Assembly: GCA_021810045.1 (NCBI GenBank)
Contig: JAJZJR010000007.1
Coordinates: 1-64,000 of the forward strand
Source of the DNA: Thermoplasmata archaeon
GTDB taxonomy: Archaea; Thermoplasmatota; Thermoplasmata; Thermoplasmatales; Thermoplasmataceae
Direction of reading: 5' to 3'
DNA length: 64,000 nt
Numbering within the stretch: the stretch's first letter is position 1; each line of letters starts with the position of its first letter. The position numbers and the translations under genes were made by a program. The notes beneath the pieces were generated by a model. That model was not told the origin of the DNA. It saw only the letters and a program-made list of their open reading frames with translations, and ran no database searches. Below are positions 17,395 to 38,418 of the stretch, one piece after another.

Positions 17395-17466
17395 GGGCCG
17401 GTAGATCAGAGGTAGATCGCTTCCTTGGCATGGAAGAGGCCTGGGGTTCAAATCCCCATCGGTCCA
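17395..17466 (+). tRNA. tRNA-Ala (anticodon GGC)
   Basis: A full cloverleaf can be drawn: acceptor strand GGGCCGG pairs with TCGGTCC, including the G3:U70 pair that marks alanine tRNAs; D stem GATC/GATC; anticodon stem CTTCC/GGAAG with loop TTGGCAT, anticodon GGC; T stem TGGGG/CCCCA with loop TTCAAAT; discriminator A. CCA is not encoded. A TATATT-like box (AATATTTATAGG, 17340-17351) lies upstream. The 3' end, from 17451, is the attachment site of the element, and the integrase gene ends inside it on the other strand. Confidence 0.95.
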
Positions 17467-18338
17467 TCTGAGATGTACCAGGGTTTAGAAGATTTGAACC
17501 CTTTTCCCTCTCTGTAAAACTTTACGTTTTTCTTCATAACACGCTCCAATGCCTCTCCAGTGTCAAGCTCTGCATAAATGCCAGTAGTCTGCAGATCTTC
17601 GTGACCCAGCATTTGACGGAGGGTTTCGAGATCTACATCGTTCCTTAACATGTTCTTTGCATATGTGTGACGGCATTTGTGCCAGGCAAATTCATTGATG
17701 CCAGTTTTCTGTTTGATGTCAGCGGCCAGTTTTCCCATATAATATTCGGAAATGGGCCCGTTCTTTGTTGTGAAAACATGAGGGCATTCCTGGTGGTTCC
17801 TCACCTTCAGGTATTCACTTATAATGGACCTTGTTTCCTCATCGATGTAGACATCCCGATCTTTTTCCCCTTTTCCGTCAACTACTGTAAGATAATATCT
17901 GTGAATGTCTGCAACTTTCAATCTGGCAATTTCCCCTCTTCTCAACCCTGTGTTTAGGGCTAACAACACCATTGCATGGTTCCTCCTGTCCTCTATTGTG
18001 GGTCCGATAGTTCTGGAAACTATCTGCTTCACCTGATCGGCGTCAAATGCTTTCTTTCTGAACGATCTGGCCTTGAGTTCAGGCAGGTATTCTATCTTGT
18101 CTTCTCCTCTTGATTCAAGCCACCTGTTTAGATACTTGATGTATCCATTGATTTTCTGCTTGGTAGATCCGTTGCGACGTTCCAGCCTCAAGAATCCCAT
18201 GATTGCTTCCCTGCTCTCTAGATCCATCCTTTTCTCGAAAAATCTCATTTTGGACATTGTTCCACGGATTGTTGATTTGGCCATGCCCCTGGAATAAAGC
18301 CAGTCCTCAAAATCAATGAAATCAGTTATCACTGTCAT
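17448..18338 (-). CDS. Tyrosine integrase (XerA/XerC-like)
   Basis: Site-specific recombinase of 296 residues. The N-terminal SAM-like core-binding domain spans residues 1-85; the catalytic domain carries Arg133 (TGLRRGE), Lys156 (DGKGEKD), His220 and Arg223 (HKCR), His246 (LGH) and Tyr255, the complete catalytic set. Its last codons are written by the tRNA 3' end and the stop codon (17448-17450) falls just past the attachment core, in the tRNA T loop. In the excised circle the frame would instead continue for 16 codons (see findings). It is the last gene of a 12-gene operon and overlaps its upstream neighbour by 17 bp. Confidence 0.93.
   Translation of the reverse strand: MTVITDFIDFEDWLYSRGMAKSTIRGTMSKMRFFEKRMDLESREAIMGFLRLERRNGSTKQKINGYIKYLNRWLESRGEDKIEYLPELKARSFRKKAFDADQVKQIVSRTIGPTIEDRRNHAMVLLALNTGLRRGEIARLKVADIHRYYLTVVDGKGEKDRDVYIDEETRSIISEYLKVRNHQECPHVFTTKNGPISEYYMGKLAADIKQKTGINEFAWHKCRHTYAKNMLRNDVDLETLRQMLGHEDLQTTGIYAELDTGEALERVMKKNVKFYREGKGFKSSKPWYISDGPMGI
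17451..17467 (+). repeat. attL, 17-bp direct repeat inside tRNA-Ala
   Basis: AATCCCCATCGGTCCAT. It covers the end of the T loop, the 3' strand of the T stem, the acceptor strand and discriminator of the tRNA, plus one base. The copy at 41546-41562 differs at one position (T to C at base 9). This copy completes the functional tRNA and so, by the usual logic of tRNA integration, came with the element. Confidence 0.88.
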
Positions 18339-23407: not shown

Positions 23408-23749
23408 TTAAGTTTCCTCTTCGTCCAGTATAACAGCAATTCCACCACTCATCACTGCGACAAAAAACCAGGTCATTCCTGCCATAAAATTACTTAAAGC
23501 AAGAATGTCAATAATTCCATTTGCAGCAGGAATAGAAAATACTTCAAAAGCGGCAAGGAGACTGATAAGAGAAACCCCACCAAGAATGTGTTTTAGTTTA
23601 AGATGAAATCTGTCGTCAATTTTTCTGAATGGATATCTGGCACTTCCGGGTTTTGTGAAGTTCGGTTTTGGTGCGGCCACTTGTTTTGTTCTTCTTTTTT
23701 TCACAGATCCTTTGTTCTTGTTACTTTTCTTTGTTTTACTGCTGGCCAT
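23408..23749 (-). CDS. Two-segment membrane protein with basic N-terminus, 113 aa
   Basis: From ATG 23749 (MASSKTKKSNKNKGSVKKRR) the first 50 residues are strongly basic; two hydrophobic helices follow (ILGGVSLISLLAAFEVFSI and FMAGMTWFFVAVMSGGIAVIL) and a short acidic end. The start overlaps the ATPase gene by 14 bp, as its neighbours do. No family recognised. The basic tail inside the cell might contact nucleic acid during assembly or transfer. Confidence 0.75.
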   Translation of the reverse strand: MASSKTKKSNKNKGSVKKRRTKQVAAPKPNFTKPGSARYPFRKIDDRFHLKLKHILGGVSLISLLAAFEVFSIPAANGIIDILALSNFMAGMTWFFVAVMSGGIAVILDEEET

Positions 23750-25805
23750 CTCTCTTCCTCCTGTTCTCATTAGTCTTCAGAACGTGGCATTCATGGCATA
23801 ATGACTGCAGATTATCAAGATCAAATTCAGGCCCGTTTTCCCATATTTCCTTGATATGATCCACTTCCTCAGCTGGTTTTCCACATTTCACACACCTATA
23901 GTTGTCACGTTCCAGGGCGTTTGATCTGATATCATTCCATTTCACTGATGTGGGATGGTTACTGTAAAACTCTGTTTTACAATCATCAGAACAGTAATAC
24001 AACTGGTTTCCCGTGAGTGTTTTGTCACAGTTAGCACATCTTCCAGTTTCCATGGCCTTTAGCCTTAACTTCAGAGATTCTTCCTGCAGCTCCGGAATCT
24101 GCTGTGACCATTTTCTTTTCCTGGAAGCTTTCTCAGAAACCCTGTTGATGTCTACAGCAGGTATCTCAGTGTTCATCAGCTCCCTGAAACGTGTTTTGAG
24201 TTCCGGGTCTGATTCAAGAGCCTTCATTTTGTCAGGATCTGATACAACATCCATGAAGAAGTTGATGGCATCAGCTGCAAGATCTTCAGCTACTTCAATG
24301 GGGTTGACTGATGGATCCACCGGATTGTGTCCAGAAAGATCTTCATTATGAGTATTTAAAACGGGGGTGACACCTCCAGGAATCTGGCCAGAATTTTCTT
24401 CATGTCTCATACCCCTATACCCCTCACTCATGAGATCGGAGCTTTCATCAGAATTTCCTTGCACCTCAGATTTCTTCTTCAGTTCAGGGCTTGCACCTTC
24501 GTTTGCACTATAATGCACCTTGAAGTTTTTCTTGCACTTTGAACACTTTGCCCATTCACCTTCCTTGTAATACCTGTTTGGAGTCCATGTCCATATGAGG
24601 CCATCGTTCTTTGGACAGTCTAAATGGTGCAATGGAAGAGGTTTCTTCTTTTCCTTATCTTCCTGCTCCTGAGGTTCCGGTTCTCCCTTTTCCGGAATCT
24701 CCCTGTCAAGATACTTGAATTTCTTGTTGGTGAACCAGTAGGGATCATGTGTTCTCTTCAGGTTATTCACATAACGTTCATAGAAGCGGTAAATCCTCGC
24801 TGTATCTCCCTGGGCTTCTGATTCGTGCATGGACATGTAATCATTCATTGCCTGGGGATCGAGATCCCATATCCAGCTTCCAGGTGAGGCAGTGTTGTAA
24901 TATTTTGTCATATCAGGGATATTCTGGAACGTGATGGGCCATTCATCACCAAAGGTCACGAATTTGCCCTCTGCCTTGTTCACCGTTCTTGGATTCTTGT
25001 ATATCTCCACATATCTGAGAGACTTCTGCATCTTGATTGTTTCATCACCGGTCTGCATCAGCCTGATTGTTGTACAGCCGAAGTGTCCGGATCTCACAAT
25101 CCAGCCATTGGCCCATTCTGCCTCCAGGGAATTGGATCTCATGTTGTTGGCTCCCCTGGTTGTCTGTTCATCCAGCACTAAGAAAAATATGGCTTCAGGT
25201 TCTTTGTACCTGACCTGCAGCATGTACAGGAGTGCTTCCCTCAATCCATGGGCTTCTGTGTAGTAATCCTTTAAGGGACCATCCTGAGTGGTTGGAAAGA
25301 ACATGGGGAAACTTGTTATGACATGGATCTTGTTTGCCATTGCAGCTCTGGCCAGATACACCACGAAGTTGTTCTTTCCTGATCGCATTGGTCCGATGAT
25401 TTCAACAAGCTTTCCCTGCATCCAGGGACCGAGACCATATTTGAAGTGCCAGGTAAAATGCATTATGTCCCTGAAGGAGTTTCCATTGTTTTCTGTATCA
25501 CCCTGATCAAGTACAGCCCAGGTTGAAAGTGAATCCTGGTTCTGCTGCATGAAGGATGTCATTTCCTGCTGCCTGAATCTGGAGTGTGCAAGCTCGACCA
25601 GTTTTCGACCTGATTCCGTCAGTGTCTGTCGGTTGATGAGGTTCCTGAAGACGAATTCAGTTTCCCAGTCTTTTATGGAAAACAGAGACCGGTCAACAGG
25701 GTATTCCTCCTTCTGTTTTTCCCGTTCTTCCTTGATGATGTCTCTTCCAACACCACCGGAAATAACACGGAGCATCTTTCTCCAGTCTGAATCACTGTTG
25801 GCCAC
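23736..25805 (-). CDS. P-loop ATPase fused to zinc fingers and an HNH nuclease
   Basis: Protein of 689 residues, GTG start with GAGGCGG upstream. Residues 130-215 hold an ATPase of the FtsK/HerA or Zot-like class: Walker A GPMRSGKN (138-145), where the usual Ser/Thr is Asn, and Walker B AIFFLVLDE (205-213). The middle has a CxxC zinc pair (KCSKCKKNF), then a low-complexity stretch; the last 110 residues carry a CANCD...YCSDDC zinc finger and an HNH nuclease (CVKCGKPAEEVDHI...DNLQSLCHECHVLK). This is the module's motor: likely genome packaging or transfer, with the HNH cutting DNA. Confidence 0.8.
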   Translation of the reverse strand: MANSDSDWRKMLRVISGGVGRDIIKEEREKQKEEYPVDRSLFSIKDWETEFVFRNLINRQTLTESGRKLVELAHSRFRQQEMTSFMQQNQDSLSTWAVLDQGDTENNGNSFRDIMHFTWHFKYGLGPWMQGKLVEIIGPMRSGKNNFVVYLARAAMANKIHVITSFPMFFPTTQDGPLKDYYTEAHGLREALLYMLQVRYKEPEAIFFLVLDEQTTRGANNMRSNSLEAEWANGWIVRSGHFGCTTIRLMQTGDETIKMQKSLRYVEIYKNPRTVNKAEGKFVTFGDEWPITFQNIPDMTKYYNTASPGSWIWDLDPQAMNDYMSMHESEAQGDTARIYRFYERYVNNLKRTHDPYWFTNKKFKYLDREIPEKGEPEPQEQEDKEKKKPLPLHHLDCPKNDGLIWTWTPNRYYKEGEWAKCSKCKKNFKVHYSANEGASPELKKKSEVQGNSDESSDLMSEGYRGMRHEENSGQIPGGVTPVLNTHNEDLSGHNPVDPSVNPIEVAEDLAADAINFFMDVVSDPDKMKALESDPELKTRFRELMNTEIPAVDINRVSEKASRKRKWSQQIPELQEESLKLRLKAMETGRCANCDKTLTGNQLYYCSDDCKTEFYSNHPTSVKWNDIRSNALERDNYRCVKCGKPAEEVDHIKEIWENGPEFDLDNLQSLCHECHVLKTNENRRKRDGQQ

Positions 25806-28261: not shown

Positions 28262-28371
28262 TTTCTGTTCCTCTTTGGTTTGAATGCCATCACGTCGCCG
28301 TTGCCTTTCACAAATGCAAAGTATCCCTTGGGAACCTGCACCTTACCGATCTTTTTTGCTTTGTCTTTCAT
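28258..28371 (-). CDS. Basic microprotein, 37 aa
   Basis: Frame MKDKAKKIGKVQVPKGYFAF, then a Gly/Asn turn and a basic tail ending KPKRNRK. It fits exactly between the PKD gene and the coiled-coil gene, with 4-bp ATGA overlaps on each side; such double coupling is unlikely by chance. The YFAFVKGNGDVMAF middle looks like a beta hairpin. Function unknown. Confidence 0.68.
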   Translation of the reverse strand: MKDKAKKIGKVQVPKGYFAFVKGNGDVMAFKPKRNRK

Positions 28372-31300
28372 CTTTTCTTACCTCTGCTCACTATTTTCAA
28401 TGGTTTACCCGGTTTTCCTTCCAGTTTTGTACCGTTTATGTCGATGACCTCTTCCCCGTGTCTTGTTACTCCGTAAACTGTGGCAATTGTACCTACTGCT
28501 GTGAGAATGATCAACCAGAAATTCATGGGACCTCCAAGGGCTGTCACAAGGTTAAAACCGGATTTCCCAAATGTCGAGGAAACTGAGAATTTCAGGGAAG
28601 TGGAATTGCTCTGGCTCTGGTTGTTGAATGCAATTACTGTTATGCCGTATGTACCTGGCTGATAATCCTGCTGATTCACTGTAAAATTGTATTCTACTGT
28701 AGATCCGTTCTCACTTACCAGAACAAGAGGAAGAGACTGAGAACCAAGGAAAGCTTCTACTGCTGATATGCCGTTCTGAGAATGAATTGTGATACTGTAG
28801 TAAACATGCGGTCCTGAAGTGGTGCTTGAAGAACTGAATGTGATTGTTGAATTGGTTCCGGTGTGCAAGGCCTGAACATTGATTGTGTTTGTGGAAGAAG
28901 CACCAAGGGCATCCTCAACTGTCAGGGTTATGCTGTAATTTCCTGTTCTGTTGAACTGGAAGAACTGATCCTGGCCTGAATAAGTGTGGCCATTGAAGCT
29001 CCAGGAATATGAGATAATGTTGGAATCATAGCTGTAGGATCCTGTTCCGTTAACTGCAAGTATTGTACCAACCGGGATTACTGAAGGGATGCTTGAAATT
29101 ACTGGAACCGGTTTGGATGGTATCATCCTTACTTCAAGAGTTGTGTTTATTTCGTGACCTGCATATGTGAACTGAAAGATGACAGGGTTGAATTCCTGGT
29201 AAACAGGGAATTTGTATGAAACATTCAAACCCTCAAGCTTCTGGCCATTTGGGAAGAACCAGGTTCCATTGTCTGTACCCTGAGAATCCCAGTTGGGTGT
29301 TGCTTTGAAATGAACAGTTGTCAGGACTGTGATTGCTGTACCGGGTGTATATGTAATGCTGACAGGATAAGGCAGGGACCTTACTGTTATGTTTGCAGTT
29401 CCGGTTGCTCCATTGCTGGCTACAACCTGGAGAACAACACTGTAATTGCCTGGTGAAAATGTCTCACCGGGATTCTGTGCAACCGATGTGTTTCCATTGG
29501 CAAAATTCCAGTGATATGCGTAACCGGAACCTCCGAGAACATCTGCGAAGAACTGTTCCTGCAGTGGAGCAAGACCGGAAGGCGTACTGTCACTTACTGT
29601 AACATAAAGATCAACATTGACGGTGAAATTATAGGTACCACGGAATCCGCCTGCATCCCGAACCACAACCTGGTAAGTTTCAGGACCTGATGATTCGAAG
29701 ACGTGTGTGATATTAAGGCCTGATTCCTGCTGACCATCGGGGAAGATCCACTGAACTTCATATGCAGGAATGCCACCGCTTATGGTTGCGTTGAGGCCAA
29801 ATGATTGTGAAACAACTGCTTTTCCATCCTGTTTTACACTTACTGCAGGATCTCCGTGTACATTTACTGTAAGAGTTGATGTTGCATCTTTCCCAAAGGA
29901 ATCTGAAACAATCAGTTGAACCGTGTAATTCCCCGGATCGGTAAAGGAATGGGAAACGGTGTTGCTTGAATATTCCTGGCCGCCAATTATCCACTGGTCG
30001 CTGAATGGACCAATACCTCCAAAAGAAGAGGCCCTGAATGTTTCCGAAACATTGGCATCAATGCTGTTTCCGGAGTAGATGATGGAAGCTTCCGGATATG
30101 ATGATACCGTGATATCTGTAACATAGGATGCAGTTTCACCCTGAGAATCCTTCACATCCAGAGTCAGGCCGTAAACACCAGGTGCTGAAAATGAGTAATT
30201 CAGTGAGCCGGATATACCAACAAGACTTGATCCAATGTACCAGGAATAATTGAAACCAGGTGTACCACCTGTTATGACGGGATTGAATGAATCCGTTACA
30301 TTGGGATCGATGTTGGAATATGTTGCATTTATGAGCGCTTCAGGAGGATTGTTTATCCTCACATTCAGGGAAGAAGTGGCAGAGTTGCCGGAGCCATCGT
30401 ATACAGTGACAGAGACAGTGTAATTTCCTGCCTGGGAAAATGAATATTCCATGTCCTGCTGATATCCAACAAATCCAATTCCGCTAACTGTCCAGGAGTA
30501 GTTAAAGAATGGATCTCCACCGGATACTGATGAATTGAATCTTACAGGAATTCCAACATCAGTTACGATCTTTGAGAGACTTATTGATACCTTTGGAGTG
30601 GGAACCACTGAAATATCAAGGTAAGCTTCAGCCCTGGCACCCTGACTGTCCTGAATGATTAGAGTGATGTTGTAATTTCCCGCCTTCGGGAAAGTATAGG
30701 ACAGATAAAGGCCGGAAGTGGTGTTAACTCCGTTTATGAACCAGAAATAACTGTAAGGTTCTGTTCCGAATGATCCATATCCTTCCCAGTATGTTGTTGT
30801 GCCAACATCGGTTATGTTTGAACCTTCGATGAGGGCTGAAGGTTTCTGGATTACTTTCACTTCAAATGATGTGGATGTTGTAGAACCGAGAGAATCCCTG
30901 ACTGTCAGATTTATTTCGTAAGTTCCAAGGCTGGTGAAGTTGAGATGGAACTGCTGGGAATAATTCAGGATGCTGGAGCCCAGGGACCAGGTATAGTTGA
31001 AAGGTGAAGACCCACCGGTAACATCTGCAAAGAAAGTGTCATTGATTCCCTGGTCAACGGTTGTATATGTGGCCTGAACCGAGACTTCAGGAAGCGGGTT
31101 TACAACTTCCTGCATTGAAGCAGAAGCTTTGTTGCCGTTCGAATCCACAATAACCAGGGTAATCTGGAATGTCCCTGGAGCTGTGAAGGTATAATTAACA
31201 TAAGATGTGCTGAAAGTCTGGCTATTTACAGTCCAGGTATAATTGTAACCTGGAGTGCCACCTGTGATTGATGCGGTGAAATTAGACCAGATTCCTACGT

Positions 31301-33119
31301 CAGTTGGGCTGTGTACCGCATGTATCAGGACGGAAGGATCCGGGTTGACTGTTTCCACAAATGAAGCAGAACCAATGTGAGAATCTCCATCAGTGACTGT
31401 GAGATTGACATAGTAATTTCCGGCTTTGCCGAATGAATATGAAAACTGGGAGGCCGTTGATTGCTGCACCCCATTTATGGTCCACAGGTAAGTGTCAGAT
31501 CCGGTGCCTCCTGAAATTGAAGACTTAAAAACAACAGAGTTTCCGGTATCTGTTGGACTCTGTGATGAGATTATTGAAACAGAGGGATTTGCGTTGATGT
31601 TTACAGTAACGGAAGATGAGTAAGTTTTCCCAACAGAATCTGTTATGGTAATGGTTGCGGTGTATGAACCAGATGAACTGAAAGAATGGTAGAAGTCCTG
31701 GGATGTGGAAACCTGCTGGCCGTTGAGAACCCATGAATAGGTGTATGGTCCTACTCCTCCACTTGGTGAAGATGAAAATTCTATGGGATACCCGACATCT
31801 GCACTGGAAACATTGGAAGATGCTGAAACAGTAGGAGCTGAGTTGACAGTTTCTGAATAGCTCTTTGATACGCTATAACCTGCAGCATCTGTGACAGTAA
31901 GATCTGCAACGTATGTTCCCGATGAAGCGAACGAGACGTTAATGTCCTGAGTACTGTAAGAATTGCCATTTATGGACCAGGAATAAGAATAGCCAGGTGT
32001 ACCACCGGACACAGAGGAAAGAAATTCCACTGTATTTCCTGCATCTGTGGGATTTTGTGTTGAGGATATGGACACAGAAGGATCTACGTTAACAGTCTGA
32101 GTTATAGTTCCAGATTGCGCAGTTATTCCATTGCTATCAGTGACAACTACATAGATTGTATAAGATCCACTGTTAGTAAAATCATATGACAGTTGACTAC
32201 CAGATCCGGAAAGAACTGAACTGCCATCCATGTAAAAGTTGTAAGTGGGATATGTTCCGGACCCACCACTTGGATTGGCTGTAAAAATAACACTCTGTCC
32301 TAAATCACTGGGGTTCTTGCTATCTTCAAGACTAACAGATAAAGCTGATCCAACCGAAATTGTGACATCCTTAGTTATTGAATAGCCAGCACTATCCTGG
32401 AATGTCAATGTGAGAGTGACAGATCCTGTAGCTGATGGTGTCCAAGTGGGGTTTGATACAGTTGTTGAGGAAAATGAACCAGATGTGGAAGACCAGGAAT
32501 ATGAATAAGATCCAGTTCCACCGGAACCTGAAGCAGTCAATGATATGGAATGTCCCAAATCAGTTGATGTGGATGAAGCAGATACTGAAACAGTTGGATC
32601 ACTGTATACCGTTATACTTACCTTACTGCTGTATCCTGTTCCATCAGATGCCTCTGCCGCAAGTTGAGCCTGGTATGTTCCTTTCGAACTAAAAGTGTAA
32701 GAGGCGTAGATATTTGGAGAGTTATAGTAAATTGAACTTGAGGCGGTATTACTCCATACTGTCTGTTGCGATCCTGAAGGAGTCCAAATCCAGAACCACC
32801 ATCCAAAAGGAGAATGATTTCCGTTACTGTATGGTACCAGCTGTACAGATGTAGTTTGTCCCTGGTCGTATTTGTAGGAGAGACCTCCCATTTCCATGAT
32901 GTTTGCCCAGTCGTTGCTGGATTCTGATGCATATAAATTTGGATTGCCACCAGTTCCCACATAAGGACTTGAAATTCCCTGGTGAACCTGATTTGGGCTA
33001 TACTCTGCGAGGAAAATTATTGAAGAGCCAAATATTGTCACAAAAAGAAATGTTGCAAGGATGAATGCAGTCTGTACTTTCTTTTTATTATCCCTAAACT
33101 GTTCCTTCTTTACATTCAT
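28368..33119 (-). CDS. Giant PKD-repeat surface protein, 1583 aa
   Basis: An N-terminal membrane helix or uncleaved signal (residues about 13-33) is followed by about 1480 residues outside the cell, made of some 14 PKD (immunoglobulin-like) repeats. Typical marks recur about every 85-90 residues: SPTDxG or VDxG openings, GGTPGYNYTWTV strands, SFSxSGxYxxxLTVTD closings. Near the C-terminus a membrane helix (WLIILTAVGTIATVYGV) leaves a basic cytoplasmic tail ending RGKKR. Many NxS/T sites suggest glycosylation. It is likely the adhesin or spike of the module. The first three repeats differ in base usage (more A+T) from the later ones. Confidence 0.85.
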   Translation of the reverse strand: MNVKKEQFRDNKKKVQTAFILATFLFVTIFGSSIIFLAEYSPNQVHQGISSPYVGTGGNPNLYASESSNDWANIMEMGGLSYKYDQGQTTSVQLVPYSNGNHSPFGWWFWIWTPSGSQQTVWSNTASSSIYYNSPNIYASYTFSSKGTYQAQLAAEASDGTGYSSKVSITVYSDPTVSVSASSTSTDLGHSISLTASGSGGTGSYSYSWSSTSGSFSSTTVSNPTWTPSATGSVTLTLTFQDSAGYSITKDVTISVGSALSVSLEDSKNPSDLGQSVIFTANPSGGSGTYPTYNFYMDGSSVLSGSGSQLSYDFTNSGSYTIYVVVTDSNGITAQSGTITQTVNVDPSVSISSTQNPTDAGNTVEFLSSVSGGTPGYSYSWSINGNSYSTQDINVSFASSGTYVADLTVTDAAGYSVSKSYSETVNSAPTVSASSNVSSADVGYPIEFSSSPSGGVGPYTYSWVLNGQQVSTSQDFYHSFSSSGSYTATITITDSVGKTYSSSVTVNINANPSVSIISSQSPTDTGNSVVFKSSISGGTGSDTYLWTINGVQQSTASQFSYSFGKAGNYYVNLTVTDGDSHIGSASFVETVNPDPSVLIHAVHSPTDVGIWSNFTASITGGTPGYNYTWTVNSQTFSTSYVNYTFTAPGTFQITLVIVDSNGNKASASMQEVVNPLPEVSVQATYTTVDQGINDTFFADVTGGSSPFNYTWSLGSSILNYSQQFHLNFTSLGTYEINLTVRDSLGSTTSTSFEVKVIQKPSALIEGSNITDVGTTTYWEGYGSFGTEPYSYFWFINGVNTTSGLYLSYTFPKAGNYNITLIIQDSQGARAEAYLDISVVPTPKVSISLSKIVTDVGIPVRFNSSVSGGDPFFNYSWTVSGIGFVGYQQDMEYSFSQAGNYTVSVTVYDGSGNSATSSLNVRINNPPEALINATYSNIDPNVTDSFNPVITGGTPGFNYSWYIGSSLVGISGSLNYSFSAPGVYGLTLDVKDSQGETASYVTDITVSSYPEASIIYSGNSIDANVSETFRASSFGGIGPFSDQWIIGGQEYSSNTVSHSFTDPGNYTVQLIVSDSFGKDATSTLTVNVHGDPAVSVKQDGKAVVSQSFGLNATISGGIPAYEVQWIFPDGQQESGLNITHVFESSGPETYQVVVRDAGGFRGTYNFTVNVDLYVTVSDSTPSGLAPLQEQFFADVLGGSGYAYHWNFANGNTSVAQNPGETFSPGNYSVVLQVVASNGATGTANITVRSLPYPVSITYTPGTAITVLTTVHFKATPNWDSQGTDNGTWFFPNGQKLEGLNVSYKFPVYQEFNPVIFQFTYAGHEINTTLEVRMIPSKPVPVISSIPSVIPVGTILAVNGTGSYSYDSNIISYSWSFNGHTYSGQDQFFQFNRTGNYSITLTVEDALGASSTNTINVQALHTGTNSTITFSSSSTTSGPHVYYSITIHSQNGISAVEAFLGSQSLPLVLVSENGSTVEYNFTVNQQDYQPGTYGITVIAFNNQSQSNSTSLKFSVSSTFGKSGFNLVTALGGPMNFWLIILTAVGTIATVYGVTRHGEEVIDINGTKLEGKPGKPLKIVSRGKKR

Positions 33120-33140: not shown

Positions 33141-33467
33141 CTATTTTGGAATAAAACTCACTATTTGATCAAAAATCAGCAGAAGGAATGCCAGTATGCC
33201 TACGAGCATGACCAGGAAGATCGGACCTGAAAATGGTCCTAACCCCAGTGTCATTGACACGAGCATGTTTATGACTGAAAGAACCAGCCATTCCATTGAC
33301 TGAAATATGGCCTGGAATCCCAGGGAGAATGCATACATTATCCAGTCCAGGAGCCAGAAGAACACATTCTCTATGTCTTTTAATATCCAGGCTCCGCTGA
33401 AGAACTTGGTTGCCTGGGTGACTGGGTTCGGAATTGAAATATTTGGTAGTGAAGGAGGGATCGGCAT
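33141..33467 (-). CDS. Small polytopic membrane protein, 108 aa
   Basis: A Pro-rich start, then two or three hydrophobic helices: FFWLLDWIMYAFSLGFQAIF, MEWLVLSVINMLVSMTLGLG and PIFLVMLVGILAFLLLIFDQIV. It lies 3 bp after the next upstream gene and 21 bp before the PKD gene. The amphipathic hydrophobic pattern recalls inner-membrane channel components of transfer systems, but there is no firm family match. Confidence 0.72.
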   Translation of the reverse strand: MPIPPSLPNISIPNPVTQATKFFSGAWILKDIENVFFWLLDWIMYAFSLGFQAIFQSMEWLVLSVINMLVSMTLGLGPFSGPIFLVMLVGILAFLLLIFDQIVSFIPK

Positions 33468-33470
33468 TTA

Positions 33471-33887
33471 TCAGAGCGCCTCTTCTCCTCCAAGTACATC
33501 TTTTTCAATGCCAATGGCATCAAATATTAGATATCCAACGAAAAGAGCCACTGAAATAGATATCACTACCATCAGGGGCCCCCATATTCCATATGAGGCC
33601 AGCGAGAATCCCCAGCTCTGGAACATGATGTCAAGGCCTCCAACCATTCCTGACATAACTCCTGAAAACGCAGAGGAGAATGCCGAAAGAATTGGTTGGA
33701 AGAGATATTTCATCAATGAATTCCACAGACTGTTGAATATGCTGGTTCCAGAAATTCCACCGGATGATGAAGCCATTGGAAGCACTGTGATACCCAGGGC
33801 CACCGACTTAAGCCTGGAAGCGCTGAGTTTCCTTATTTTCAGGCTTCCCCTGATGAGGATCTTCCTGGCAAATGCCCTCAAGGACAT
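33471..33887 (-). CDS. Small membrane protein, 138 aa
   Basis: The first 30 residues are basic (ARKILIRGSLKIRKLSASRLKS); hydrophobic segments follow around residues 28-40, 55-85 and 100-122 (YGIWGPLMVVISISVALFVGYLIF), and the end is acidic. Its middle segment (LFQPILSAFSSAFSGVMSGMVGGL) is Gly/Ser-rich, as in pore-lining helices. The ATG overlaps the stop of the 37-residue basic gene (TAATG). Not recognised. Confidence 0.72.
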   Translation of the reverse strand: MSLRAFARKILIRGSLKIRKLSASRLKSVALGITVLPMASSSGGISGTSIFNSLWNSLMKYLFQPILSAFSSAFSGVMSGMVGGLDIMFQSWGFSLASYGIWGPLMVVISISVALFVGYLIFDAIGIEKDVLGGEEAL

Positions 33888-34012: not shown

Positions 34013-34483
34013 TTAATTTATAAATTTCCTCCTGTGTGCAAAGGCTGCATCCGCGATCATGACAATCACAAAGGCAAAGATTGAAAACAGGAAATACAGA
34101 GCTGCAGGATTGCCTGACATTGCAGCAACCACCACGTACTGGCCGAAGTTGAACTCATATCCAAGGAAGCCTCCAAAGATCAGGCCAAGTATGTACCCTA
34201 TGACTGGCCTTACAATGAGATCAACAATGCCTTTGGCTCCACGTGTGAACAATTCTATGATTGCCCATATTGATATACCAAGAACAAGACCAGGTGTGAT
34301 GGTACTCTGATCCAGAATGAAGGTGTGGCCTTCAACTATGTATGCTGGTTTTGAAAACAGCGATATTGTGAGAACTCCAAGAGAAATCAGTGACACAATG
34401 ATTATGCCGATTCCCTTTTCATCGCTGAATTTCCTGAAAGATTTCATCTTTCCTGTACTTTTCTTTGTTTTTGTAACGCTCAT
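34013..34483 (-). CDS. Four-helix membrane protein, 156 aa
   Basis: Basic cytoplasmic start (MSVTKTKKSTGKMKSFRKF), then hydrophobic helices at about 25-43, 63-80, 90-110 and 122-146, ending HRRKFIN. The layout (small, four helices, both ends basic) is like internal membrane proteins of pleomorphic archaeal viruses, a resemblance in architecture only. ATGA overlap with the gene before it. Confidence 0.72.
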   Translation of the reverse strand: MSVTKTKKSTGKMKSFRKFSDEKGIGIIIVSLISLGVLTISLFSKPAYIVEGHTFILDQSTITPGLVLGISIWAIIELFTRGAKGIVDLIVRPVIGYILGLIFGGFLGYEFNFGQYVVVAAMSGNPAALYFLFSIFAFVIVMIADAAFAHRRKFIN

Positions 34484-35181
34484 TCTTTTTTCCTCCCAAA
34501 GTCAATATCATAAAAGATCCCAGCCACAGCTGCAAGACCAAAAATCACTGTTCCACCGAACACATAACCAATCTCCTCAGCTGTGAGTGGCCCGAAAATT
34601 GTGTGCAATCCATTGTCACCAAATACCTGGAATGAGAGACTGTATGCAGTGTTGTTGGAAATGAATTCAAACATAAGATCCTGGGACTGGTTGCCAGTGA
34701 GATACTGCGGTGAAATCACGTAGTCTGTTTCTGAAACATTGAATGATGAAACTGATAACACCGGAATGAAATTGGATGAGTTTGTACCGAACCCGACTTC
34801 CTCTGTTATGTTACCCGAATAAGCAAGATCCAGGACAAGCTTGTTTACAGAGAAATCGTTGAGTTCTCCCATTGTTAGGTTTGTCTGAACAAATGAAATC
34901 TGCTGGTTGTATGGCATATCATATGATACAGATATATTGCTCTGGCCAAATGGTATACCTGATCCAGTTTCATTGTAGATGTAAAGGGCATTGGATTCAC
35001 TCGATAGAACAACACTTGTATGGCCGTCTGCGGTTGCTGCACCAAGAGTGGCAAATGCAGGTACACTTGCGAATGCCAAAATTACAAAAATGATCAGAGC
35101 AATGAAGAACCTGCGACCCTTTCCTTTGGCTGTCTCACCCTGCTGGGCTGGCTGTTGCGGTTTAATTTTCTTTACTGCCAT
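34480..35181 (-). CDS. Membrane-anchored outer protein, first gene of the module
   Basis: Protein of 233 residues: basic start (MAVKKIKPQQPAQQGETAKGKGRR), membrane helix about 28-47, an outer domain of about 155 residues rich in Asn and Ser with several NxS/T sites, and a second helix near the C-terminus (YVFGGTVIFGLAAVAGIFY) ending in a basic tail. GGAGGAAG precedes the ATG but can be locked in a hairpin (see leader). It opens a run of 15 tightly packed minus-strand genes. Confidence 0.72.
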   Translation of the reverse strand: MAVKKIKPQQPAQQGETAKGKGRRFFIALIIFVILAFASVPAFATLGAATADGHTSVVLSSESNALYIYNETGSGIPFGQSNISVSYDMPYNQQISFVQTNLTMGELNDFSVNKLVLDLAYSGNITEEVGFGTNSSNFIPVLSVSSFNVSETDYVISPQYLTGNQSQDLMFEFISNNTAYSLSFQVFGDNGLHTIFGPLTAEEIGYVFGGTVIFGLAAVAGIFYDIDFGRKKE

Positions 35182-35266
35182 TTCTGACTTCCTCCGCTGA
35201 CCGGAAGAAGCAGAAGCCCCAGCTTATCGGAGGATCAGAGCTTCCGCTTCTCCGATAAGCTTTTCA
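35181..35266 (-). promoter_or_regulatory. Structured mRNA leader with competing hairpins
   Basis: A TATA-like stretch (GATATTTTTTAA on the minus strand, about 35287-35298) predicts transcription from about 35266, giving an 85-nt leader. Hairpin A: 35261-35250 with 35232-35221, 12 perfect pairs. Hairpin B: 35253-35237 with 35220-35204, 17 pairs including four G:U. Hairpin C: 35210-35202 with 35196-35188, 9 pairs with one G:U and a 5-nt loop, covering the GGAGGAAG ribosome-binding site. A excludes B, and B excludes C, so A plus C would be off and B alone on. This is read by hand from base pairing; no energies were computed. Confidence 0.55.
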
Positions 35267-35425
35267 GATGACCCAAACCGTGAAGTGTTAAAAAATATCC
35301 TATTACTATTCTATCCACATTTGGCAAACAAGGATATTCCTGTGAATGTAATTATGAAACAGTTTCAACGGAATTTCTTAGTTTCATTGTTTTTAGACTT
35401 TTTTCAAAAAATTTAAATAAAATCT

Positions 35426-36186: not shown

Positions 36187-38418
36187 ATGAAATTAGAATC
36201 GAGAGATCATTTAAGCAAGAAGTCTTTTTCAGTAGCCTCTGCTACTTTAGTTCTTTTTGCCTCTTTTGTTGTATTAGCTACTTTTGCGGCATTACCAGTC
36301 GCGCATGCTGCGACTCCTCCGATAAATCCAGTAGATTGGCAAGGGTGGAATGGCAATAATACGGTATACCTTACTACAGATTTTGGAGGATTTAACCATC
36401 AACTTAGACATATGGATAACATAAATAAATCAGGGACTACGACTACTCAAATTGACTCACACATATTGAATGTTTCATCAGGGAACTCAAATTATGAAGA
36501 CTCTACGTTTGATGGGATATCCCTTGGACTGGGTGCAATTGGCTCTGTTAATAACCTTTCGGCAGATAACTATAGTGAAGGTTTCACATATACTCCATTT
36601 GGGAATTCTATTATAATAGCAGTGCCTTATTCTGTCATAGGATTTGCTCAGAGCTTAAATTCTGTGGGGGCTGCATACCCAGTATCTCACGTAAACATTT
36701 CAGCTTCTATAAGTGGTTTTTCTAACGGGACTCAAGGGACATTTGTTGACAGGCAGGTTTTCGCCAGTTATGCAACAGGTTATAACATTTCAACAGTGGA
36801 AAACTCCACAGCTGGATTGAACCAAGCTTACTTAGAGTGGCTCAGTGGTAGTTCACTTGTAGCAGGTGCACTTTCTATTTATACTAGTGCTTACCCCCCA
36901 ATCTCTGCAGTTTTAGGATATTACTCTCTTCTTTCAGGGGCTTATCTTTCGTTCCTAAATTCTAATGGTAATAACTACCCGATTTTTTCTGGATTAAATA
37001 CAACCTATGATGGAACGGTATTTGAAAACGCATCTGTTACAAATGGGAATTACACTCAAACCCAGAGTGGGACCAATACTGTCGTAAATTACAATAATAC
37101 GTTTGCAGCAGGAGGTTATATGGTTTTTGCCCTTAATCAATCCGATTTTACAGAAACAGGCTCACTTCAGTTGCGTGCGAATAATATAATTACTGGATAT
37201 GCAGGGAGTCTAGAAAAGGGGGCTTCTGCTACACTTAACATACCTATTGTGCCTGCCTATAATATTAAGGGAACTGCTTACATAAATGGACAAGTAGCTA
37301 AGAATACTACCCTATTACTTGAAAATGATACCACCCATTATTACATAAAAACAAATTCAACTGGACAATACCAATTCTTCGGCGATCCAGGTCAAGAGTA
37401 TTTTCTCACTGACCCATCAATAGCCATTGGAGGTGTGCAGATTTTTACTCCTTCTGATACCAGTGGAGGAACATATAACTTATATTCGACAACTCAAAAT
37501 TTCTCAGAAAGCGGCTTGCCTAGTGGTACTAATTGGTCAATCGGATTCTCAGGTCCAGAGCTCCCATCAGGAAATCCGGAATTTTACACAGGTTACAGTA
37601 CTACTTCGACACTATCAGTTTCTATTGCTGGGAATGAAAGCTATGAGTACACAGTCAATGCCCCATCAGGATATACTGCAAGCATAACAAGTGGAAATTT
37701 GAACATTGGAACCTCCACACCCTCAACAATTTCTATTTCCTTCACTCCAACACCTACGTATACAGTTACTTTCCAAGAATCTGGGTTACCATCGGGGACT
37801 GAATGGAGTGCCAAGTTGGATGGTGTTCAGCATAGCAGCACATCCTCCACAATAACGTTTTCTAGTGTTCCGGCTGGTTCAACTACTTGGTCAGTCCCCT
37901 ATGTATATTATTCGACGACTTTATGGTATGAACCTACTAATGGAGGAGGTTCTTTTACTCTTAGTGGAGCTAAAACAATAGATGTTACTTTCACAGGTGT
38001 GCCACAGAGTACTATATCATGTGTATATGCACTGGCTCCTGTGCTCTTATCAAATTATACAACCCAATATGCTCAGAGTATAAAGGCCGGGGATAACATC
38101 ATGACATACAACTTCTCAACAGGAACTATGCAACAGGGCACAGTACAACAGGTGTTCATAACTCACCACACCGAAATGTATGTAATAAACGGTTACCTAA
38201 AAGTAGCAGGAGATCAGGATATCTGGACGAACCATGGGTACATTCAGGCACAGAATCTCACAAGTAATGACACTATCTATAACGTCTTTGACAGCCACTA
38301 TCACAGAGTTCATTCAGTTTCGGTAGAATACGGCAACTTTACCATGTACGACTTTTATGTAACTGCAAATCACAATTACATCGTTTGGTCGAATCTCATG
38401 CAGGATCGGTTGCCATAG
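36187..38418 (+). CDS. Secreted surface protein with C-terminal Hint (hedgehog/intein) domain
   Basis: Protein of 743 residues. A signal peptide (VLFASFVVLATFAALPVAHA, about 22-41) is followed by a large Asn/Ser/Thr-rich beta domain, then two units with the FxESGLPSGTxW motif common in Thermoplasmatales surface proteins. From Cys612 (SCVYALAPVLL) to the end lies a Hint domain: KAGDNIMTYN, then block-B-like DQDIWTNHGYIQAQNL, then MYDFYVTANHNYIVW like intein blocks F/G. The terminal His-Asn of true inteins is absent, so cleavage at Cys612 rather than splicing is expected. A+T-rich like the gene before it. Confidence 0.8.
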   Translation: MKLESRDHLSKKSFSVASATLVLFASFVVLATFAALPVAHAATPPINPVDWQGWNGNNTVYLTTDFGGFNHQLRHMDNINKSGTTTTQIDSHILNVSSGNSNYEDSTFDGISLGLGAIGSVNNLSADNYSEGFTYTPFGNSIIIAVPYSVIGFAQSLNSVGAAYPVSHVNISASISGFSNGTQGTFVDRQVFASYATGYNISTVENSTAGLNQAYLEWLSGSSLVAGALSIYTSAYPPISAVLGYYSLLSGAYLSFLNSNGNNYPIFSGLNTTYDGTVFENASVTNGNYTQTQSGTNTVVNYNNTFAAGGYMVFALNQSDFTETGSLQLRANNIITGYAGSLEKGASATLNIPIVPAYNIKGTAYINGQVAKNTTLLLENDTTHYYIKTNSTGQYQFFGDPGQEYFLTDPSIAIGGVQIFTPSDTSGGTYNLYSTTQNFSESGLPSGTNWSIGFSGPELPSGNPEFYTGYSTTSTLSVSIAGNESYEYTVNAPSGYTASITSGNLNIGTSTPSTISISFTPTPTYTVTFQESGLPSGTEWSAKLDGVQHSSTSSTITFSSVPAGSTTWSVPYVYYSTTLWYEPTNGGGSFTLSGAKTIDVTFTGVPQSTISCVYALAPVLLSNYTTQYAQSIKAGDNIMTYNFSTGTMQQGTVQQVFITHHTEMYVINGYLKVAGDQDIWTNHGYIQAQNLTSNDTIYNVFDSHYHRVHSVSVEYGNFTMYDFYVTANHNYIVWSNLMQDRLP

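Follow-up and report, generated by a model that had tools for sequence, protein, structure and literature searches.

Leader, promoter and module

On the minus strand of the window (the whole stretch of DNA analysed, 64,000 nucleotides) a leader at 35266-35181 forms three helices, A, B and C, before a GGAGG and the ATG at 35181. The 16S RNA of this genome ends GGATCACCTCC, and GGAGG is thus a proper Shine-Dalgarno (SD) site. The promoter, the parts of the leader and the genes that follow are these:

35286-35297, minus strand: TATA-like box, at a position conserved in relatives
35250-35261, minus strand: 5' arm of stem A; the purine strand P1 begins here
35221-35232, minus strand: 3' arm of stem A, read from the sequence and the comparison of copies
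35237-35253, minus strand: 5' strand of helix B, made of the loop of A and the top of its 5' arm (to about 35259 in extended B)
35204-35220, minus strand: 3' strand of helix B, the linker, also the anti-SD strand (to about 35197 in extended B)
35202-35210, minus strand: 5' arm of helix C, the anti-Shine-Dalgarno
35188-35196, minus strand: 3' arm of helix C, including the SD site
35212-35218, minus strand: 5' arm of helix C2, another register in which the ribosome site is blocked
35186-35192, minus strand: 3' arm of helix C2
35191-35195, minus strand: Shine-Dalgarno GGAGG
34480-35181, minus strand: g1, first module gene, 233-aa membrane protein with homologs
34013-34483, minus strand: g2, 156-aa membrane protein, fused ahead of g1 in most relatives
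33471-33887, minus strand: g3, small hydrophobic module protein
33141-33467, minus strand: g4, small hydrophobic module protein
28368-33119, minus strand: g5, 1583-aa surface-type protein with about 12 PKD domains

The helices lie where the initial annotation had placed them. Stem A joins 35261-35250 to 35232-35221 by 12 perfect pairs, helix B joins 35253-35237 to 35220-35204 by 17 pairs including four G:U (18 counting one more), and helix C joins 35210-35202 to 35196-35188 by nine pairs over the GGAGG at 35195-35191. Helix B extends downward, most of the 5' arm of A being able to pair with the linker, and pairing of 35218-35212 with 35192-35186 (C2) provides a second register in which the SD site is blocked. 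Another helix over the SD, UCCUCCG:CGGAGGA, is possible at a cost of more than 11 kcal/mol. The RNA 35266-35181 folds at -43.2 kcal/mol (z -4.86, 0/200 shuffles as low; a second estimate gave z -5.4), and in dinucleotide shuffles of the leader a helix of at least 17 bp appeared in 0/500 and one of at least 12 bp in 1.4%. Of the upstream regions tested in the window, 45 in all, the leader has the strongest fold (z -6.1, against -4.2 and -1.8 for the next two), with z about -5 to -6 over the estimates. The second strong fold (z -4.2; 33465-33550, minus strand) precedes the gene at 33141-33467 and lies mostly within the end of g3.

In the nine copies that were aligned, a TATA-like box begins 30-32 nt ahead of stem A: 32 nt in seven of them, 31 nt and 30 nt in the remaining two. 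Since transcripts in Archaea typically begin about 25 nt past the centre of the box, the RNA is predicted to start with the first nucleotides of stem A. The initial annotation had named a start downstream of 35220 as speaking against its switch; the boxes place it instead at about 35262-35267, the box of the window itself being weak (6/8 positions).

The module comprises small membrane proteins, the PKD-repeat surface protein and additional membrane genes. Directly behind the leader stands g1 in the window and in G005, and a fused g2-g1 in the other module copies; the leader thus belongs to the start of the module and not to one gene. Comparison of the two genes (34013-35181, minus strand) with the loci L156, L154, L157, L194 and L195 shows one fused gene in most relatives, but two genes with their order exchanged in the window and G005. 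Many homologous modules of the same protein family have no leader, and the module can therefore do without it. The membrane-protein genes behind the leader in G002 and G031 show no detectable similarity to the window module, and the leader can still be recognised where the proteins of the elements have ceased to match. Integrases related to that of the window lie on the same contigs as these two loci (L230, minus strand, 1340 of the reverse complement; L231, from 2314). Fold searches with g2-g1 returned only weak carbohydrate-binding-like or phage-protein matches.

Near the module, in the window or in relatives, we found integrases, a P-loop ATPase with a DnaA-like phage-family match, and an Hjc-like resolvase and an ArdC-like protein, both of them sub-threshold Pfam matches. 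A structural model of the ATPase was of too poor quality and was left unused. In the window a tyrosine integrase gene (17448-18338) adjoins a tRNA gene (17395-17466), which suggests an integrated element and likely marks its end. The element may be a virus or plasmid-like. No relative of g2 was found in the plasmid and phage collections, and searches of IMG/VR with stricter leader patterns and with the g2 protein gave no matches; a pattern of 16-18 bases gave at least 120 there, which we took for chance. In G099:C1 a related module occurs twice, about 29 kb apart (L174 at 1816908 and L183 at 1846339), with identical flanks as shown around the start. The window also encodes a 743-aa protein of secreted type whose C-terminal part gives a weak HINT/intein-like match (36187-38418, plus strand), and a 689-aa protein that combines a P-loop motif with an HNH nuclease domain at its C-terminus (23736-25805, minus strand).

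Relatives and the conservation of both folds

Relatives of the leader occur in other Thermoplasmata genomes, the MAGs TL2-2.bin24 and FK3.bin88 among them. A DNA search recovered one more copy from the genome of the window, on contig C32, and others from G005 and G027, and covariance models built from the first copies recovered the remainder (G032:C4, G108:C21, G135:C26, G135:C24, G002:C52 and G031:C13). Beyond the window copy, nine relatives have readable helices before open genes; four more are incomplete, one ended by a contig edge (G135:C33) and three decayed (G032:C7, G001:C71 and G016). The genome G135 comes from a different family within the class. G002 and G031 are the weakest intact matches (5.7e-6 and 1.5e-4 per genome), with the same layout as the others, and G091:C13, a weak model match, was dropped as unconvincing together with low-scoring BLAST matches. 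The C32 copy is counted among those before open genes, its gene being an in-frame deletion derivative of the module. There (L003, 2226-3500, minus strand) the deletion joins the first part of g2-g1 to the protein normally found past the PKD gene, and the resulting gene stands behind an intact leader. We rejected a reading of the leader itself as coding sequence: C32 and G032a do have one open frame across it, but the window and G027 have interruptions, and the indels do not come in threes.

Compensatory changes in related elements had been proposed as a check on the two states, and A, B and C all recur in the relatives with such changes, most strongly for A and B. Stem A keeps 11-12 perfect pairs in 10/10 intact copies while its sequence changes completely; its arms differ as widely as AGCUUAUCGGAG, GAACUUACGGA, GUUGUUCAGGC and AGGUUUCGGAGC. 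When the 3' arms were permuted among five diverged copies, only 1 of 120 arrangements, the true one, paired as well. Helix B behaves in the same way: its whole 5' strand pairs with its own linker at a mean of -32.5 kcal/mol, against -22.4 with the linkers of other copies, and the true assignment of linkers is again the single best of 120. With both swap tests best for the true pairing, the 5' strand appears to have co-evolved with two partners. The loop:linker pairing of B reached p<0.05 in 10/10 copies (combined p 1.7e-8), these p values being approximate and drawn from base-composition shuffles; for G031 alone, dinucleotide shuffles gave a non-significant 0.14. The copies are few and partly related to one another.

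Within the close group, one pair of stem A alternates between U-A and A-U, and G:U changes occur as well; the covariation of A+C lies above all 500 shuffles. Helix B shows only one-sided G:C/G:U changes there. Since its 5' strand hardly varies in this group, column-shuffle counts on B alone are uninformative, and we replaced them by the swap tests between diverged copies. At C/C2, alignment column 82 changes between G and A jointly with C/U changes in columns 60 and 54. Support for the SD-blocking helix comes from the close group and G135:C24; in G135:C26 the helix is marginal, in G002 it is weak, and G031 lacks it. Permutation of helix C gave 12/120 arrangements as good, which is not significant, and no copy-by-copy co-adaptation, an outcome that makes sense if there is little room for variation in the ribosome site. 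In the eight copies that precede the g1/g2 module one state hides the SD site and the other frees it. Two exclusive helices that share a strand are thus kept across the relatives, and both states look to be maintained by selection.

The copies before broken genes provide a comparison. Pairs of stem A are intact at 69/70 positions before open genes and at 14/20 before genes with stops or frameshifts (p 4e-4), and those of the B core at 83/84 and 19/24, respectively (p 0.002). The folding z is -1.4 and +0.9 before broken genes, against -3.4 to -5.4 in intact copies. Copies with broken genes have lost the fold.

Folding order and interpretation

Folding was computed with ViennaRNA under standard parameters. 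As the chain grows, the predicted minimum is first A; it shifts to B when the linker has emerged (site free) and to A+C when the ribosome site has followed (site hidden). This order holds in 7/7 copies of the main set and in G135:C24, that is, in 8/8 copies before the g1/g2 module; in the diverged G002 and G031, B stays the minimum-energy fold at equilibrium. In the full-length RNA A+C lies below B by 2 to 11 kcal/mol, and barriers on the direct path from B to A+C were computed at 19-31 kcal/mol at 37 C, as upper bounds. The initial annotation had asked whether energies would make only one state possible. In the window at 37 C, A+C beats B by 5.6 kcal/mol, yet as long as the ribosome site has not been transcribed the nascent RNA folds best as B, and both states are therefore reachable.

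Conservation, the predicted start site and energies, the three grounds on which the proposal could have failed, together support the two exclusive states first proposed, A+C with the site hidden and B with the site free, whose operation in cells we infer. That distant relatives keep both folds despite sequence change suggests on/off control of protein making, and we consider the leader probably to be a conserved bistable translation switch on the mRNA of a mobile-element membrane-protein module in an acid-loving archaeon. The purine strand, formed by the 5' arm and loop of A, would pair either with the 3' arm of A or with the linker. In the closed state the linker would double as the anti-SD strand and cover the ribosome site; in the open state it would be held by the 5' strand, leaving the site free. 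During synthesis A would form first and B would displace it before the ribosome site emerges; A+C would then become the equilibrium fold and the message would close on refolding, with ribosomes loading while B persists. Since B precedes A+C in the computed order, translational control set during transcription appears most likely. The comparison of copies shows A and B conserved as exclusive alternatives, pairing of the SD in most copies, the spacing to the promoter and the association with the module, whereas the folding order and barriers come from calculation; that ribosome loading differs between the states, with timing as the control, we infer.

A protein or other signal could also bias the choice of state, and a switch gated in this way, in which a factor such as an element product binds one state and sets translation, is the main rival, although we regard it as unlikely. 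It needs conserved exclusive states, as found, and the core of the 5' strand, AGCGGAAGC, is near-invariant across copies while its partners vary. This pairing core is, however, the only near-invariant part: the apical loop varies and is unconserved in diverged copies, and neither a junction nor another pocket is visible. The leader falls below every gathering threshold in Rfam 15, riboswitches included (best Magnesium-II, 19.3 against 40, and CcsR1, 17.9 against 65.3). The genes behind it are neither metabolic nor ribosomal, and no ribosomal domains were found in the module genes tested.

The remaining readings fit less well than a bistable leader. The hairpins might simply stabilise the end of the mRNA or keep translation low, with B a by-product of recurring purine/pyrimidine motifs. 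A+C is indeed the stable fold of the window copy, with the site hidden, and P1 resembles the SD region, so that some cross-pairing is expected. The copy-specific pairing of B (1/120), however, includes its lower part, which pairs with changed arms of A; a by-product would not follow such changes, and we hold a plain structured leader to be improbable. It is very unlikely that the leader is an RNA thermometer, in which warming melts C and frees the ribosome site. Between 37 and 60 C the cost of opening the site drops from 5.8 to 2.7 kcal/mol in G108 but barely in the window (5.6 to 5.0), and a thermometer has no need of helix B, which is nevertheless co-adapted copy by copy. Least credible is a DNA-level palindrome (an operator, recombination site, replication hairpin or intrinsic terminator): the arms of A do form a perfect inverted repeat, followed on the plus strand of the window by four T, but the position of A is fixed between the TATA box and the SD site, B and C involve the ribosome site, plus-strand genes do not end there, and the T run is not conserved, so that terminator and operator were rejected.

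Known switches and the archaeal leader

Natural RNA switches are well known in bacteria, and many archaeal messages are leaderless. To our knowledge such switches are scarce and rarely documented in Archaea, and comparative support for two exclusive folds rather than one is uncommon. The bistable leader may moreover belong to a ligand-independent, self-timed family of switches in archaeal mobile elements or viruses, which would open translation briefly on each transcript and then close it, a possibility that we put forward tentatively. If true, a surface- or virion-like module would be translated for a limited time per transcript, the first such case in Archaea, as we know of no earlier archaeal example of a self-timed kinetic switch. 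In any case the leader offers a short, testable sequence for the study of folding during transcription and of translation start in Archaea, and possibly a handle on how these elements control the membrane module. Leaderless mRNAs are in wide use in Thermoplasma (PMC7531240).

Translational riboswitches, mostly bacterial, share the anti-anti-SD logic in which a competing strand sequesters the anti-SD; the archaeal leader differs in having no recognisable aptamer, Rfam match or metabolic gene downstream. Ribosomal-protein operon leaders likewise are structured leaders ahead of multi-gene operons, whereas here membrane proteins of an element lie downstream. In the hok/Sok and aapA3 type I toxin mRNAs, which form metastable hairpins (PMC6733600), sequential folding, exclusive helices, anti-SD strands and compensatory changes recall the present case. 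Their transient hairpins, however, prevent early translation, and the systems include an antisense RNA, whereas the intermediate predicted here leaves the site free and the genes encode membrane proteins, not toxins. In the maturation-protein leader of phage MS2 a transient fold admits ribosomes before the inert fold forms (PMC6733600). As in the reading preferred here, a transient structure permits translation of a viral or mobile-element gene before the equilibrium fold closes the site; the host domain and the sequence are different, and the archaeal leader has a conserved strand with two partners and a timing that is computed only.
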